A DNA stretch of 44,283 nt from Candidatus Venteria ishoeyi. Its GTDB lineage: Bacteria; Pseudomonadota; Gammaproteobacteria; Beggiatoales; Beggiatoaceae. The first letter of the stretch is position 1, and each line of letters opens with the position of its first letter. Location: assembly GCF_030378065.1 (NCBI RefSeq), contig NZ_JAUCGJ010000009.1:1-44283 (forward strand). Reading direction: 5' to 3'. The notes under the pieces are model-generated. The model searched no databases. It saw only the letters and a program-made list of their open reading frames with translations, and was not told where the DNA came from. Shown here one piece after another: positions 32,880 to 43,636 of this stretch. A program made the translations under genes and the position numbers.

Positions 32880-33593
32880 TTAGTTAATACTATTAATTGC
32901 AGCCGGTAAAACCAGCTTATAACCCACGCCATAAATCGAATGAATAATCTCAAGGCCCGGTTGTATATTCGCCAGTTTTTTACGCAGGTTTTTGATATGG
33001 GTATCCACTGTGCGATCCGTGACGATGCGGTTGTCTTCATAAACATGGTCTAATAACTGCGCGCGGGAATAGACCTTATCCGGGTGTTCCGCCAAAACCT
33101 TGAGCAGACGGAATTCCGCCGGGGTTAAGTCCAGGCTTTGTTGTTGGAAGCGAATCTGATAGGCCGTAGTGTCAATGCTGAATGCGGGTTTCGGGTCAGT
33201 CGAGTCAGTTGTGGTCTGATGCGCATAATCCAGGCGACGGAAGATCGCTTTCACGCGGGCGACCACTTCTCGCGGGCTGTAGGGCTTGCAGATATAATCA
33301 TCCGCGCCTAATTCCAGTCCCAGCAGGCGGTCGATTTCTTCCACTCTGGCGGTGGTCATGATAATCGGTACCTGGGAAAAGCTGCGAATTTCCCGGCACA
33401 GTTCAATGCCATCACGCCCCGGCAGCATTAAATCCAGCAGAATTAAATCGACAGGCTGATTTTTAAGCCAGGGGATAACGGATAATCCATTATCCAGAAT
33501 ATGTGGGATAAAACTGGCCTGCTTCAAATAATCCGCCAGCAAACTGGCAAGTTTTGGTTCATCTTCCACAATCAGAATCTGGCGTGATGCCAT
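32880..33593 (-). CDS. OmpR/BaeR-type response regulator
   Basis: About 237 residues: a receiver domain with the acidic pocket (EDE, 11-13), phospho-acceptor Asp54-55 region (LLDLMLPG) and CKPYSP lysine, then a winged-helix Trans_Reg_C domain (about 135-230: LTPAEFRLLKVLAEHPDKV, VDTHIKNLRKKL, GVGYKL). It should regulate transcription when phosphorylated by the kinase encoded upstream, whose stop overlaps this start (TGATG; a GTG one codon earlier is also possible). Closest in style to BaeR. Confidence 0.93.
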   Translation of the reverse strand: MASRQILIVEDEPKLASLLADYLKQASFIPHILDNGLSVIPWLKNQPVDLILLDLMLPGRDGIELCREIRSFSQVPIIMTTARVEEIDRLLGLELGADDYICKPYSPREVVARVKAIFRRLDYAHQTTTDSTDPKPAFSIDTTAYQIRFQQQSLDLTPAEFRLLKVLAEHPDKVYSRAQLLDHVYEDNRIVTDRTVDTHIKNLRKKLANIQPGLEIIHSIYGVGYKLVLPAAINSIN

Positions 33594-35128
33594 CACTTGT
33601 TATCCTTGGCTTTTGGTAATCTCAGGCAGATACCCAGACCGCCCAGTGGCGAGGCTTGGGCAGAAATCTCGCCAGCGTGAGCAGTAACGATATTCCGGCA
33701 AATCGCCAGACCCAGGCCAGCACCCCCCAAAGCCCGACTGCGCGATTGATCCACGCGGTATAAACGTTCAAATAACTTGGGCATGGCGGCCTCTGGCACT
33801 GCTGGGGCTGAGTCATTAAATATCAGGGTAAACTGTTCTGTCGCCGTTTGCAGGCTGATGTTTAACTCACCTCCGGCATCCGTGTAGCGCACGCTGTTTT
33901 CCAGCAGGTTAGTAAACAGTTGTTGCAAACGTTGACGGTCGGCAAATACCGGCATGTTTGCCATGACGTGATTTGTCACCTGGATGTTTTTACTTTGAAA
34001 ACGGGCAGCAAAGCTTTCCAGACTTTGTTGCAGGATTTCGTTAACATCAGTGATTTCCTTGCGATAGTCCAAAGCACCGAGATCAGATAAGGTTAAATCG
34101 TATAAATCATCCACCAGCTTACCTAATGATAGCGTCTCTTTGTGCAGGGATAATAAATGCGCTGCTGACAAGGGTCTGATGCCATCTTGCATGGCTTCAA
34201 TTTCGCCGCGCAGTACTGCCAGCGGGGTGCGTAGTTCATGGGAAATATCAGCAACCCACTGGCGGCGCATTTGTTCATTACGTGCCAGGGCTTGTGCCAG
34301 ATGATTAAAATCTGTGGCCAGTTGTCCCAGTTCATCCTGGCTATGGACTTGTACGCGGGTCTGGTAATCACCACTGCTGAGACGGTGCGCGCCCTGGGTG
34401 ATATGTTGCACCGGGGTTAATAACTGACGCACCAATACCCAGGCTGCCAGGGCTGAAAGTAATAAAGCCAGGGCTGCGATAATATAATAGTTTTGGGTTT
34501 GTTGCGCACGAAAAGCCTGCACGAATTCATCTTCCACCCGCTGATGTGGACTGATGCCCAGCCAGGCAATAATTTCTCCCTCTGATTTTACGGGATGCAG
34601 GTTTTCCAGCACGATAGCATTCGGGGTGGAACTGCCTTGTGAAAATTTATGTTCGGGTGTCATTACCACTTGTTTTTGTGGATCTAAAATCCACAAACGC
34701 GGCAATAAGGGAAATAAAGGATGTGAGCGACGCCCGCGACGGTGTCTGCGGTGGGGACGATGTCGCCTGTCTGTCAATTCGCGTATTTTTTGAGGCAAGC
34801 TATCTGCGGCTATTTTACGGCTCTCTTGTGCCGTTTTGTCAGTGGGTGGCTTTAAGCTCCAACGCAGGGTGCGCATGATTAAAAAGTGTTTATGTCGCAA
34901 TAATTCCCAACCACCATAAGTTTGGTAAATATTACCCAGTACCGGCACAAGTTGTTCCAGTTGCGCCACTTCCTGATGATGCAGATAACGCTGTAGACCG
35001 GTCTTAAAAGTCCAATGCACCGATGCTGCCATGCCCAGAATTAACAGCATGGCGATGAGCATAAAAGCAAACAATAGCTTAGGAAAGAGTTTCAGTTTCA
35101 TTCGATCTGAATTCGGCGCAAGCTTCAT
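33593..35128 (-). CDS. Sensor histidine kinase with Arg/His-rich periplasmic stretch
   Basis: A 511-residue BaeS-like kinase: first membrane helix about 18-38, periplasmic domain about 40-212, second helix about 213-234, HAMP (about 235-287), HisKA with WVADISHELRTPLAVL (His297) and a HATPase domain ending GGAGLGLAICRNIV. The periplasmic part holds RRHRPHRRHRRGRRSHP (121-137), an unusually basic, His-rich segment that could bind anions, metal or an acidic partner. The gene just upstream encodes an acidic EF-hand protein with its own His-rich tail. Overlaps the response regulator gene. Confidence 0.92.
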   Translation of the reverse strand: MKLAPNSDRMKLKLFPKLLFAFMLIAMLLILGMAASVHWTFKTGLQRYLHHQEVAQLEQLVPVLGNIYQTYGGWELLRHKHFLIMRTLRWSLKPPTDKTAQESRKIAADSLPQKIRELTDRRHRPHRRHRRGRRSHPLFPLLPRLWILDPQKQVVMTPEHKFSQGSSTPNAIVLENLHPVKSEGEIIAWLGISPHQRVEDEFVQAFRAQQTQNYYIIAALALLLSALAAWVLVRQLLTPVQHITQGAHRLSSGDYQTRVQVHSQDELGQLATDFNHLAQALARNEQMRRQWVADISHELRTPLAVLRGEIEAMQDGIRPLSAAHLLSLHKETLSLGKLVDDLYDLTLSDLGALDYRKEITDVNEILQQSLESFAARFQSKNIQVTNHVMANMPVFADRQRLQQLFTNLLENSVRYTDAGGELNISLQTATEQFTLIFNDSAPAVPEAAMPKLFERLYRVDQSRSRALGGAGLGLAICRNIVTAHAGEISAQASPLGGLGICLRLPKAKDNK

Positions 35129-35205
35129 TCAGCGCCAAAGACACTGAAAGCCGCTTCCGCCTCATGCTCAATAATTGATTATGTGCTCATTACCTTGACA
35201 GTAAC

Positions 35206-35787
35206 TCACTTGTAAAAACCATGACCTTGACCATGACCTCTGCCATGCCCCCGGTGTCCCCGACCACGCTTCATCGGCATATGATTGCTAAATTCTGTTT
35301 CCGAGATGATACCATCACCATCAGCGTCAATGTGAGCAAATTGCCGCCACAAGCGACCTTGCTGGCTTTTAAGTTCAGCCATTTCATTAACGTCCAAAGT
35401 AGCACTTTGATCAGTATCGGCTAAACCAAACAGCGTTGCCGCCACTACCGGGTTGCGATGCCCGGCCTGAAATTCTGCAACACTGAGTACGCCATTACCA
35501 TCGCTGTCCATTTCTGCCAAACGTGTGGCACGATTTTGTGTACGTTTATTCTGCATCAGGGTCTGCAATTCCTGAAGACTTAAACCGGCATTGCCATCGC
35601 TGTCATATTGACTGAATTCCGCGCTGCGACCAGCTTGAATTTCCTGAATGGTGACTTCGCCATTGCCATCTGTATCATACTGCGCGGCAATGCGCGCCAG
35701 GTGATGCTGCCCCCACTGCGCAAAAGCAACGGTGCTGACACCTAAACCTAAAACCACTGCCAGACTGATAAGTTTTTTGTTTAACAT
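35206..35787 (-). CDS. Secreted EF-hand protein with His-rich tail
   Basis: About 193 residues: signal peptide (LISLAVVLGLGVSTVAFA), then five EF-hand-like calcium loops (DTDGNGEVTIQE, DSDGNAGLSLQE, DSDGNGVLSVAE, DTDQSATLDVNE, DADGDGIISETE) and a Gly/His/Arg tail (RGHRGHGRGHGQGHG). The fourth loop lacks some usual ligands. The start is ATG at 35787 (GAGG upstream) rather than 35814. It heads an operon with a sensor kinase and regulator, so it is likely a periplasmic calcium or metal-binding input or target of that system. The pairing is seen; the sensing role is inferred. Confidence 0.86.
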   Translation of the reverse strand: MLNKKLISLAVVLGLGVSTVAFAQWGQHHLARIAAQYDTDGNGEVTIQEIQAGRSAEFSQYDSDGNAGLSLQELQTLMQNKRTQNRATRLAEMDSDGNGVLSVAEFQAGHRNPVVAATLFGLADTDQSATLDVNEMAELKSQQGRLWRQFAHIDADGDGIISETEFSNHMPMKRGRGHRGHGRGHGQGHGFYK

Positions 35788-36098
35788 GAGACTTTTCCTC
35801 GTCATTGTGACCATTTTGTCAAATAAATCCAGAAACTGGAAAGACTGTATTTCCGTTTTCCTTATGACATAGCATGACGCCCCAATTTGAGGGAAATTTG
35901 AAGAAAATGTGAGTTTTTAGCTAACGATCATGTTGGTGCCCCATCACCCCGGAACATAAAACAGCCCCAGAATTTGTATTGTTTTATAGTAAAGCTTGTC
36001 ATATTTAAGCTATAACCCGGATAAACATCTTTACCTGAATAATAAAATTCCATTACACTATCGCTTTTTTGCCTGTCAATACAGAGAAAAACCGAGCA

Positions 36099-36386: not shown

Positions 36387-36519
36387 TCTGAACATCATTT
36401 TAATATCTGGGAGTCTGTCAGATTTATTTTTATCAGGCAGTTTTTAAGCCTGACAAGCTTCCAGCACGCCCTCCATGAGAGCGGCATTTTATTATTTTCT
36501 GTTTACGGGACTCTATTCC

Positions 36520-37908
36520 ATGCGTATTAAATTACTTGTGGCAAGCATTGCTATTGCCATTTCAAACACAAATCCGGTTTTTGCTGCGGATGATATTAAA
36601 TTATTACAACAACAGTTGGAAAAACTGAAGCAAAATTATGATCAGCGCATACAGGCCTTAGAGGCGCGCCTGAAAAAAGCGGAAACCCATGCTGAACAAG
36701 CCAGCACCCAAGCTTCACAACTTACACATAAAGCCGGCCAGGTTGAAACGCCGAGTGCAACCAGCAATGCTCAAAATAGCTTAAATCCTGCTATCAGCCT
36801 GATTCTCGATGGTCGTTATGCCAGCTTTAAACAACAGCCGGATAAATATGAACTACCGGGATTTGCCTTAGGTAATGAAGCCGGGGTGGGAGAAGAAGGT
36901 ATTTCACTGGGTCATACTGAACTGACTGTCAGCGCTAATATTGATGACAAGTTTTATGGTGAAACCACACTGGCGATCCATGAACATGAAGGCAGTACAG
37001 AACTGGAATTGGAAGAAGCCTTTGTACAAACCCTGGGGCTGGGTAATGGCCTGGGCGTAAAAGCCGGTCGTTTTTTCTCAGCAGTCGGTTATTTGAACGA
37101 ACAACATGAACATATCTGGGATTTTGCCGATGCCCCGCTGATCTATCGTGGTTTGTTTGGTAATCAACTGCGTGATGATGGCCTGCAAATCAGTTATATC
37201 GCACCCACCGATACTTTCCTGCAACTGGGCGCGGAGGCCTTTAGAGGCAGTCGCTTTCCCGCAGGTGGTGAACATGGCGGCGTCGGTGCATGGACGGCAT
37301 TTGCCCATCTGGGCGGTGATATAGGCGTTGAGCATAGTTGGTTGTTGGGTCTGAGCCATTGGCAGGCCAATGATATTGATGGGCGCACCAGCGGTGGTCA
37401 CAGTCATGATGGCGAAGCAGTTGAAATACCGTCTTTTACCGGAAAGAGCAAAATTAATGCCCTGGACTTGGTGTATAAATGGTCGCCCAACGGTAATTCA
37501 AAAAACCAAAACTTTAAATTGCAATTTGAATATTTTGATCGGCGGGAAGATGGCGTAGTCACGCTTCTGAATAGTGACCCATTGGAAACCACCCATTATG
37601 ACGGTCATCAAAAAGGCTGGTATGCACAAGCTGTATATCAGTTTATGCCACAATGGCGTACCGGGCTGCGTTATGACCAACTGGGCAGCAGCAATTCCGC
37701 TTCTGATGATGAGCTGTTAGGCGAAGCGGGGCTGGATAATGAAGGTCATACCCCCAGACGTTACAGCGTCATGCTGGAATGGCTGCCCAGCGAGTTTAGT
37801 CGTATTCGGCTGCAATTTAACCAGGATAAATCCTATGAAAATACGGATAAGCAGCTCTTTTTGCAGTATACCCATAGTCTGGGCAGTCATGGTGCGCACA
37901 CATTTTAA
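36520..37908 (+). CDS. Outer-membrane porin-like protein of the zinc operon
   Basis: About 462 residues. A signal peptide (to NPVFA) is followed by a coiled-coil segment (DIKLLQQQLEKLKQNYDQR, then IQALEARLKKAETH) and a beta-barrel with many alternating strands, ending QYTHSLGSHGAHTF. His-rich loops occur (HEHEGSTE, GGEHGGVG, GGHSHDGEAVE). Porin-like proteins of this design sit in zinc-regulated loci, so it is a candidate zinc entry or scavenging channel of the outer membrane. ATG at 36520 is preferred over 36475. Seven bases precede the ZnuA gene except for a short spacer. Confidence 0.75.
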   Translation: MRIKLLVASIAIAISNTNPVFAADDIKLLQQQLEKLKQNYDQRIQALEARLKKAETHAEQASTQASQLTHKAGQVETPSATSNAQNSLNPAISLILDGRYASFKQQPDKYELPGFALGNEAGVGEEGISLGHTELTVSANIDDKFYGETTLAIHEHEGSTELELEEAFVQTLGLGNGLGVKAGRFFSAVGYLNEQHEHIWDFADAPLIYRGLFGNQLRDDGLQISYIAPTDTFLQLGAEAFRGSRFPAGGEHGGVGAWTAFAHLGGDIGVEHSWLLGLSHWQANDIDGRTSGGHSHDGEAVEIPSFTGKSKINALDLVYKWSPNGNSKNQNFKLQFEYFDRREDGVVTLLNSDPLETTHYDGHQKGWYAQAVYQFMPQWRTGLRYDQLGSSNSASDDELLGEAGLDNEGHTPRRYSVMLEWLPSEFSRIRLQFNQDKSYENTDKQLFLQYTHSLGSHGAHTF

Positions 37909-37920
37909 AGGCGAAATATC

Positions 37921-38826
37921 ATGTTAAAGCAATGGCTTAAAATAATTATATTTGTATTTTTTCCAGCATTATTGAGTGCCGGTTCGGCTTATGCTGATTT
38001 GCGGGTATTTGCCTGTGAACCGGAATGGTCAGCATTGACCCAATCTCTGGGAGGGAAGCATGTAACGCTTTACACTGCAACAAGCAACCGACAGGATCCG
38101 CATCATATACAAGCGCGTCCGAGTTTAATTGCCAAAGCGCGGCGTGCTGATTTGCTGGTATGCACGGGCGCGGATCTTGAGATCGCCTGGCTGCCGCTGT
38201 TGTTACGAAAATCTGCTAATACAAATATCCAGCCAGGTCGGGCCGGTTATTTTATGGCAAGCGATCATGTGCTGTTGCTCGATAAGCCAACACGATTGGA
38301 TCGTAGTGAAGGTGATGTTCATGCAGCGGGCAATCCTCACATCCATCTGGATCCTGAACGTATTTTGCAAGTGGCGACCCGTTTAACGCATACCTTGATA
38401 AAGATTGATCCGTCAAATCAGACTGATTACAAACAAAACCTGAGCTTGTTTACCCAAAAATGGCAAAACAAGATAAGTTTGTGGCACAAACAGACACAAG
38501 CACTGACAGATAAAAGCATTGTAGTGCATCATAACAGTTGGGTTTATCTGTTGCAGTGGTTAGGTCTGAATCAAGTTGCCACGCTGGAGCCTAAGTCGGG
38601 CATCCCGCCCACCAGCGCGCATTTGAGTTCATTGCTTTCCACTCTGCAACAAAAACCTGCACATATAATTGTTCATGCCAGTTATCAGGATGCTAAAGCG
38701 GCAAACTGGCTATCACGGAAAACGGCAATTCCTATCGTTGCATTAGATTTTAGTCCAGCCCTGGATGAATCTCTGGAGTCGTGGTTTGACCGCCTGATCA
38801 GCCGGCTTTCAGGGGCTGGCGCATAA
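37921..38826 (+). CDS. znuA: Zinc/manganese ABC transporter substrate-binding protein (ZnuA-like)
   Basis: A 301-residue periplasmic cluster A-I binding protein with signal peptide (to SAYA). Metal-site candidates are His61/62 (DPHHIQARPS), His140 and His142 (GNPHIHLDP), His204 (VVHHNSW) and an acidic residue in the C-terminal lobe (ASYQDA). The long His-rich loop of many ZnuA proteins is missing; only SEGDVHAAGNP occupies the position. The stop overlaps the znuB ATG (TAATG). Confidence 0.88.
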   Translation: MLKQWLKIIIFVFFPALLSAGSAYADLRVFACEPEWSALTQSLGGKHVTLYTATSNRQDPHHIQARPSLIAKARRADLLVCTGADLEIAWLPLLLRKSANTNIQPGRAGYFMASDHVLLLDKPTRLDRSEGDVHAAGNPHIHLDPERILQVATRLTHTLIKIDPSNQTDYKQNLSLFTQKWQNKISLWHKQTQALTDKSIVVHHNSWVYLLQWLGLNQVATLEPKSGIPPTSAHLSSLLSTLQQKPAHIIVHASYQDAKAANWLSRKTAIPIVALDFSPALDESLESWFDRLISRLSGAGA

Positions 38827-39590
38827 TGGATGGATTGGATGTTAGCATCCTCGGGCCGGCATTTATTGCCGGCTTGTTAGTGCTGATTACTCACGTACCA
38901 CTGGGTCAGGAAGTTTTAAAGCGCGGTATCATTTTTATTGATCTGGCTATCGCGCAGATTGCTGGATTGGGTGTTATCGCGGCATCACGGCTCGGTTTTG
39001 AAACGCACGGATGGGAAGTGCAAATCATAGCAATAGGTAGTGCCTTACTCGGTGCATGGGGGTTAAGCCTGTTGGAAAAACACCAGGCAAAGATCCAGGA
39101 AGCATTGATTGGCGTTTTTTTTATCTTGGCGGCAACGGGCAGCATACTGTTACTGGCGGATAATCCCCACGGTGGCGAGCAGCTCAAGGCACTTCTGGTG
39201 GGGCAAATCCTGTGGCTTACCTGGGCGCAGCTCATGCCACTCGCCCTGATAACCGGGCTGATAGCATTGTTATGGTTTTTGTTTCAACACAACAGACGTA
39301 TTGTATTTTATTTAGTATTTGCCGTTGCTGTAACCAGTTCGGTGCAACTCGTTGGCGTTTACCTGGTTTTTGCCAGTCTTATTATTCCAGCGCTGGGAAG
39401 TCGTGGAATACGCAAATCCTTGATCGTGGGATATGGCATCGGTGCACTTGGGTATGGGCTGGGCTTGATTTTATCATCAGTGCTAGACCTGCCCAGTGGT
39501 GCTGTTATTGTCTGGATGATTGCTATCATTGCATTGTTGCCTGGATTTTTCATCAAATACACAACAAAGGGAACGTTACCATTTTCGTGA
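38826..39590 (+). CDS. znuB: Zinc/manganese ABC transporter permease (ZnuB-like)
   Basis: A 254-residue ABC-3 family permease with about eight hydrophobic helices. Recognisable parts are FIAGLLVLITHVPLGQEVL, FIDLAIAQIAGLG, ADNPHGGEQLKALLVGQIL and SVQLVGVYLVFASLIIPAL. It should carry zinc (or manganese) across the inner membrane. No ZnuC ATPase gene lies before or after it; the operon ends in a terminator. Confidence 0.88.
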   Translation: MDGLDVSILGPAFIAGLLVLITHVPLGQEVLKRGIIFIDLAIAQIAGLGVIAASRLGFETHGWEVQIIAIGSALLGAWGLSLLEKHQAKIQEALIGVFFILAATGSILLLADNPHGGEQLKALLVGQILWLTWAQLMPLALITGLIALLWFLFQHNRRIVFYLVFAVAVTSSVQLVGVYLVFASLIIPALGSRGIRKSLIVGYGIGALGYGLGLILSSVLDLPSGAVIVWMIAIIALLPGFFIKYTTKGTLPFS

Positions 39591-43587: not shown

Positions 43588-43636
43588 AATTTCTATCGTT
43601 CCCACTCTCTCACCTCTATATAAGGAAATTGAGAGG

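Follow-up and report, generated by a model that had tools for sequence, protein, structure and literature searches.

What does a secreted EF-hand protein do when its gene stands at the head of a two-component operon? The question is raised by the 44,283-nucleotide stretch of Candidatus Venteria ishoeyi DNA analysed here (the window, from genome G000: 4.4 Mb in 115 contigs), in which the genes for an EF-hand protein, a BaeS-like sensor histidine kinase and a BaeR-like response regulator follow one another, consecutive and tightly packed, all on the minus strand (Table 1). We propose that they form a self-regulated three-component signalling module with the EF-hand protein as a co-sensor, a reading to which we give a probability of about 0.48. 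In such a module the kinase would sense envelope or ionic conditions and phosphorylate the regulator, which would bind a tandem box upstream of the EF-hand gene and drive the operon. The first product, the secreted EF-hand protein, would bind divalent cations, most likely Ca2+, and would feed back on the periplasmic domain of the kinase, as CpxP does on CpxA and DbfQ on DbfS; both this contact and whether the feedback is positive or negative are predictions.

The linkage of the three genes carries much of this proposal. The kinase and regulator open reading frames (ORFs) overlap by 4 bp, and 77 bp separate the EF-hand gene from the kinase (104 bp if the kinase start common to relatives is taken), a gap in which a promoter and terminator scan found no terminator-like site on the coding strand. 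The elements lie where the original prediction, made earlier from the same sequence, had placed them, and the conserved EF-hand start is the one it gave, 35787. Of the 42 family genomes, 14 carry the kinase at E <= 1e-60, and G027, which carries it in two pieces (1.5e-40) beside an EF-hand gene, brings the number to 15. An EF-hand gene adjoins the kinase or the regulator in 13 of these 15, with the strands arranged either way: it lies upstream and in line in G000, G002, G009, G010, G014, G026 and G028 (with one intervening gene in G002 and G026), it is divergent in G016, G027, G033, G035 and G312, and in G003 it diverges from the regulator while the kinase lies 4 kb off. G031 (2.7e-51, 33% identity, regulator first, no EF-hand gene seen) and the second kinase of G033 (1.8e-46) were excluded from the kinase count. 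In G025 an EF-hand gene with the box stands beside a kinase cut down to a 116-residue remnant (L208:5478-5828). With these 13 of 15 genomes and its recurrence elsewhere, the claim that the three genes belong together is upheld. The intervening gene of G002 and G026 encodes a DUF4405 membrane protein (L051:6843-7343 and L052:1546-2046; Pfam on the G002 protein).

We drew 274 genomes from the class, 28 of which contain a kinase match at E <= 1e-65. The matches lie at 30 places, and 28 of these places do not belong to the family. An EF-hand gene lies within 0.7 kb at six of these 28 BaeSR-like loci (L058, L076, L078, L084, L085 and L090), and at L094 there is an EF-hand match barely above the cut-off plus an LTXXQ gene. 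LTXXQ/Metal_resist genes score above the cut-off at at least three BaeSR-like loci (L077, L080, L094) and below it at L091 and L092, counts that are a minimum, the Pfam scan having covered 20 chosen neighbours. The LTXXQ/Spy-like small genes of these five loci lie near where EF-hand genes sit at other loci, and in L080 and L091 the best box is upstream of such a gene. On a kinase tree of 44 rows, in which the label 'none' includes loci with short flanks, the EF-hand label takes nine changes, at least four of them forced by well-supported branches.

Loci were also collected by similarity to the EF-hand protein only; this set is the best 79 of at least 125 confirmed, and its members are not mutually independent, some being the family loci again. 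A two-component gene (more than 60 bits to the window's) lies within 5 kb at 33 of the 79, and in 21 of these 33 the nearest gap is below 500 bp, that is, 21 in 155 slots of 500 bp versus 12 in 1184 slots farther out. Low scores against the window kinase were obtained for the partners from Rhodobacteraceae, Rhodoferax, Pseudomonas, sphingomonads and Salinisphaeraceae; five such systems were scanned (L110, L111, L124, L135, L148) and are closest to OmpR/EnvZ, below cut-off, making them a second partner class. BaeSR-like systems and, separately, OmpR/EnvZ-like ones could have recruited secreted EF-hand proteins recurrently in proteobacteria, as co-sensors that serve histidine kinases in the periplasm, a generalization that we offer tentatively. 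If true, Gram-negative bacteria would be able to pass an extracellular Ca2+ signal to transcription in a calmodulin-like way. EF-hand genes were seen directly beside two-component systems of other proteobacteria at L117, L124, L125, L133, L134, L146, L148, L149, L158, L111, L159, L126, L135, L167 and L110. In Psychromonas (L099, L103) the EF-hand partner ORF is much larger (491-548 residues), and a box lies between the regulator and the EF-hand gene.

The kinase and the regulator are homologues of E. coli BaeSR. The kinase is 41% identical to BaeS across 494 columns, full-length and including the periplasmic domain, the regulator is 59% identical to BaeR, and the kinase-regulator gene order is the same. 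Both score under the curated NCBIfam equivalog cut-offs, the kinase with 457 bits (cut-offs 500, NF012163, and 603, NF007837) and the regulator with 334.5 (cut-off 380), and we therefore name the pair BaeSR-like. The profile of the family kinases matched PDB entry 5wvm, a fusion protein that includes a two-component sensor kinase, with E 1.5e-14 over profile positions 34-96, with no single stretch passing; 5wvm presumably represents the BaeS sensor domain. The sensor segment of the kinase alone had no match in the PDB, and a fold search with the kinase model returned mostly kinase cores. To the full-length homology and the shared gene order the likeness with E. coli may add a related promoter box. 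The two systems differ in that no mdtABC-like ORFs were found beside the window operon, in the loop of the sensor domain (in the aligned segment, 49 residues in the window kinase and 17 in E. coli BaeS) and in the target: in E. coli, Spy is a target of BaeSR, whereas here the predicted target is the EF-hand protein.

The box, a direct repeat in tandem that recurs every 11 bp, is conserved in the EF-hand promoters of the family and appears to resemble the published BaeR site. We built a position weight matrix (PWM) from 14 sites in 11 genomes, the window site among them. The window box scores 30.2; the next scores in the window are 16.5, for a possible third half-site that overlaps it, and 16.4, for an unrelated place at 43616, and 20 Markov shuffles reach 8.4-19.6. 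Among 35 EF-hand promoters scanned (genes with less than 120 bp of upstream sequence were left out), 15 have scores of 21.8-31.7 and the other 20 do not exceed 9.3. The high scorers from outside the training set are those of G027, G025 and the second EF-hand gene of G002, and five of the 20 low scorers come from genomes that have the kinase (G050, G021, G017 with two, and G009 with a second gene). Close copies of the box are scarce in the four genomes searched. Allowing up to three mismatches, the window-site pattern occurs at two other places in the window's genome, both with three mismatches (reversed control, 1), and no other copy lies within two. G010 and G028 have the exact pattern at their EF-hand promoters and one further site with three mismatches. 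In G002, searched with a looser pattern, there are two exact matches and no others: one at the EF-hand operon, the other 140 bp before a second EF-hand gene (L184:1661-2485) that is not linked to the operon and encodes a 274-residue secreted EF-hand protein. Because the box is conserved, its close copies are scarce and the exact match in G002 precedes a second EF-hand gene, we consider the EF-hand gene very probably the regulator's own target. Of all steps of the mechanism this relation, in which the regulator would bind the box, has the best support, and it is very likely; greater confidence is withheld because the box outside the family is found mostly at the kinase and because of the lack of a promoter match. 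Two further places were noted: a near copy of the EF-hand promoter in G002 (L188:1501, one mismatch), with no EF-hand gene after it, perhaps a remnant of a duplication; and, in G000, two box-like repeats 70 bp apart (C45:50102-50191; L181, L193), about 260 bp before a lipoprotein-like ORF, possibly a further target or a simple repeat.

Outside the training set, the best site lies upstream of the kinase, EF-hand or LTXXQ gene in 17 of 30 loci: 13 are at the kinase (one shared with LTXXQ), three at the EF-hand gene and one at LTXXQ. With 300 column-permuted matrices the mean was 4.6 and the maximum 13, so that 0 of 300 reach 17, and the reversed matrix gave 8. This control replaces a Poisson-binomial P, which takes sites as equally likely along the locus, and L103, a near copy of L099, was excluded from the test. 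As the best sites are mostly at the kinase, the box outside the family mostly marks the kinase promoter. The published 9-mer consensus of BaeR, TCTNCANAA, quoted in PMC3799227, occurs exactly at nine sites, in 7 of 15 EF-hand upstream regions of the family, where 1.1 are expected. In G021 two boxes (L049:4908-4964) lie between the kinase and a divergent gene for an Lcl_C-domain protein, at the expected position of the EF-hand gene.

Table 1. Features of the EF-hand/BaeSR-like operon and its promoter, in window coordinates.
Feature	Position	Strand	Remarks
EF-hand gene	35206-35787	-	ORF open from 35814; ATG at 35787 is the start common to relatives (alignment)
Gly/Arg/His-rich C-terminal tail GRGHRGHGRGHGQGHGFYK	35209-35265	-	most orthologues in the family have a similar tail
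BaeS-like sensor histidine kinase (HAMP, HisKA, HATPase_c)	33593-35128	-	conserved start probably 35101
Basic stretch RRHRPHRRHRRGRRSHP	34718-34768	-	residues 121-137 of the kinase, within a hypervariable, presumably periplasmic linker
BaeR-like response regulator	32880-33596	-	Pfam Response_reg, Trans_reg_C
Tandem direct-repeat box TTTTCTTCAAATTTCCCTCAAATTG	35883-35907	-	predicted regulator site, 95 bp upstream of the EF-hand start
Possible third half-site AAAAACTCACATTTTCTTCAAATTT	35894-35918	-	overlaps the box; PWM 16.5, not significant alone

The EF-hand protein contains five loops of 12 residues each (DTDGNGEVTIQE, DSDGNAGLSLQE, DSDGNGVLSVAE, DTDQSATLDVNE and DADGDGIISETE), three of them canonical and the other two with Ala at loop position 6, and scores 74.3 bits with PF00036 (cut-off 25.4). 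EF-hand families were its only Pfam matches at E <= 0.001, with none to LTXXQ or PepSY. Read by eye, its N-terminus looks like a Sec signal peptide. In the AlphaFold2 model the core has a predicted local distance difference test (pLDDT) value of 78-94 per block of ten residues, and the N-terminus and the tail are below 52. In view of the canonical loops, Ca2+ is the most likely cation, and on established EF-hand chemistry it is probably the ligand. A fold search with the model gave weak matches to calmodulin and ALG-2 (template modelling score 0.24-0.33 to the query, among the 50 matches listed); the fold matches of the EF-hand protein and of the kinase are uninformative on mechanism. An identity as XopAW or lanmodulin (LanM) was rejected, the NCBIfam scores being 66.5 against a cut-off of 120 and 55.4 against 135, respectively.

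How could such a protein act on the kinase? The original prediction was that the strongly basic loop of the kinase docks the acidic EF-hand protein electrostatically, and in the window the net charges, +9 for the loop and -12 for the EF-hand core, would suit this. The basic stretch is presumably periplasmic, because it lies between two long hydrophobic helices (in the sequence, and at 14-71 and 201-251 in the AlphaFold2 model), and it is predicted to be disordered (pLDDT below 50 at residues 119-121 and 123-138), which speaks against docking. Across the 13 family kinases compared, the same position is occupied by low-complexity sequence, Pro/His/Arg-rich or acidic, of very unequal length. The loops of EF-linked kinases (19 rows) are 19-145 residues long, with net charges from -13 to +9, those of unlinked kinases (20 rows) have net charges from -4 to +6, and Pro-rich loops are typical of both. 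In the G002 operon, where the same EF-hand gene is present, a loop of -13 goes with an EF-hand core of -22, and loop and core charge are uncorrelated overall (rho 0.02, n 17; phylogenetic contrasts r 0.21, p 0.41). The basic loop is therefore one state of a fast-changing linker and not a conserved docking element. Docking by charge between loop and core, rejected as a general rule since this comparison across operons already contradicts it, is very improbable as an explanation for the window. Homologous operons without the basic loop thus exist, whereas no such random loss was found for the EF-hand gene. The charges of the loop and of the C-terminal EF-hand tail do rise together (rho 0.74, n 17); their signs are equal and not opposite, and the contrasts reach only r 0.47, p 0.06. 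As a weak lead, equal signs would, if real, fit loop and tail competing for one acidic surface and not mutual attraction. These correlations use the average of the two EF-hand proteins that G016 has. Neither the loop counts nor the tree include the G026 kinase, which is split over two overlapping frames, or that of G312. The periplasmic loop of the G017 kinase (L060:4852-6567) is built of PPHEGMG-like tandem repeats.

In another reading, histidines in the variable loop would let the kinase itself sense transition metals (Cu2+/Zn2+), and the EF-hand protein would have a role apart. Each of the 13 family loops in the comparison carries 1-9 His, the window EF-hand tail is likewise His-rich, and E. 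coli BaeS clusters with Cu2+, with four periplasmic His required for Cu binding in vitro (PMC4780735). However, the EF-linked kinases L076, L085 and L099 have no loop His, and the metal-uptake genes adjoining the window operon were unmatched in the 20 stretches compared, so that we regard metal sensing by the kinase as improbable. Far stronger is the view that the EF-hand protein is output only: its regulated production would answer the kinase's signal, as that of Spy does in E. coli, and it would serve as an envelope protein or as a buffer of periplasmic cations that has no contact with the kinase. The box demands no more than that the EF-hand gene is a target, LTXXQ/Metal_resist (Spy-like) genes occur at other BaeSR-like loci, and the box before the second, unlinked EF-hand gene of G002 fits an effector. 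Yet an effector needs no fixed linkage, and here the genes stay linked whichever way the strands run, with the pairing seen again in a further class of two-component system; we consider the output-only explanation a serious one, although short of even odds. Mere hitchhiking of the EF-hand gene in a conserved operon, with no functional coupling, would accommodate its absence beside the kinase in G017 and G021 and the failure to find it at the majority of BaeSR-like loci of other groups, but the occurrence of in-line and divergent arrangements, the repeated gains or losses on the tree (nine changes) and the shared box leave it scarcely credible.

Several observations weigh against the proposal that the EF-hand protein is a co-sensor under the control of its own regulator. 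Two of the 15 family genomes, G017 and G021, show no EF-hand gene next to the kinase in the stretches covered, the majority of BaeSR-like loci from other groups likewise showed none, and no conserved element of the kinase loop accompanies the EF-hand gene. The scan for promoters found none of sigma-70 type between the box and the EF-hand start on the coding strand. Twelve of the 15 high-scoring EF-hand promoters are training sites, and of the seven EF-linked loci that the box test took from other groups, three have their best site at the EF-hand promoter (L084, weakly, 6.9; L090; L099), that promoter's site ranking second in L076 and third in L078, with none in L058 and L085. The window promoter has no exact match to the BaeR consensus, and the E. 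coli mdtA promoter has a PWM score of 5.4, second best within the 17 kb around it that were scanned. Finally, the looser pattern that was used on G002 finds 12 places in the window's genome against two in the control, and therefore weaker targets may exist; the best of these has one mismatch (C45:50172), and the window's own site is not listed.

Precedents for feedback by a small accessory protein come from several systems. CpxP is a small periplasmic protein that is regulated by its kinase CpxA and feeds back on it (PMC4160245). The CpxP-CpxA-CpxR layout is the same as here, and the earlier comparison with CpxP was apt to that extent. The EF-hand protein differs from CpxP in having no LTXXQ match, the basic partner is the accessory protein in the case of CpxP, and a CpxP-like accessory binds and inhibits its kinase, whereas here contact is predicted. 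In the DbfQ-DbfR-DbfS system of Vibrio cholerae the gene for a small secreted protein lies upstream of the kinase and regulator genes, in relatives also on the opposite strand, and DbfQ binds the kinase DbfS (PMC12714742). The likeness is a small secreted protein encoded with a kinase and a regulator on either strand; the difference is a PepSY domain there and EF-hands here, where binding to the kinase is predicted. CiaX-CiaR-CiaH of Streptococcus mutans is likewise a three-gene two-component operon with a calcium-binding protein under its own regulator (PMC8317062), although in a Gram-positive organism and with an SD-domain protein (PMC10574481) instead of an EF-hand one. In Caulobacter vibrioides, CaBP is a periplasmic EF-hand protein tied to transcription through SigV, an extracytoplasmic function (ECF) sigma factor as partner, with a membrane link that PMC13171946 states to be unknown.

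With the fixed linkage and the CpxP, DbfQ and CiaX precedents taken together, feedback of the EF-hand protein on the kinase appears evenly poised. The module is a variation on a known accessory-protein layout of two-component systems, the accessory here being an EF-hand protein, and the best reading by analogy is that this protein fills the slot held elsewhere by CpxP, PepSY (DbfQ) or CiaX proteins. Different small-protein folds (LTXXQ, PepSY, EF-hand) may thus fill one accessory slot. A module of EF-hand protein, kinase and regulator with a likely box makes the link from a periplasmic EF-hand protein to transcription testable in one operon and, if the recurrent recruitment of EF-hand co-sensors is true, such proteins would supply the sort of membrane link whose absence the Caulobacter study notes. 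Among the records listed, titles and abstract beginnings contain no EF-hand/BaeSR or EF-hand/kinase operon; subscription papers lie mostly outside this search, so absence from print is not established.

Divergent from the operon, at 36475-39590 of the window, lie genes for an outer-membrane-like protein and a member of the ZnuA family, together with a permease-like ORF assigned from its sequence alone. A zinc link through the adjoining ZnuA-like and outer-membrane genes was rejected, as the same 20 stretches gave no match to these neighbours. The promoter and terminator scan also showed one weak terminator-like hairpin near the EF-hand start on the coding strand, at 35840-35828.

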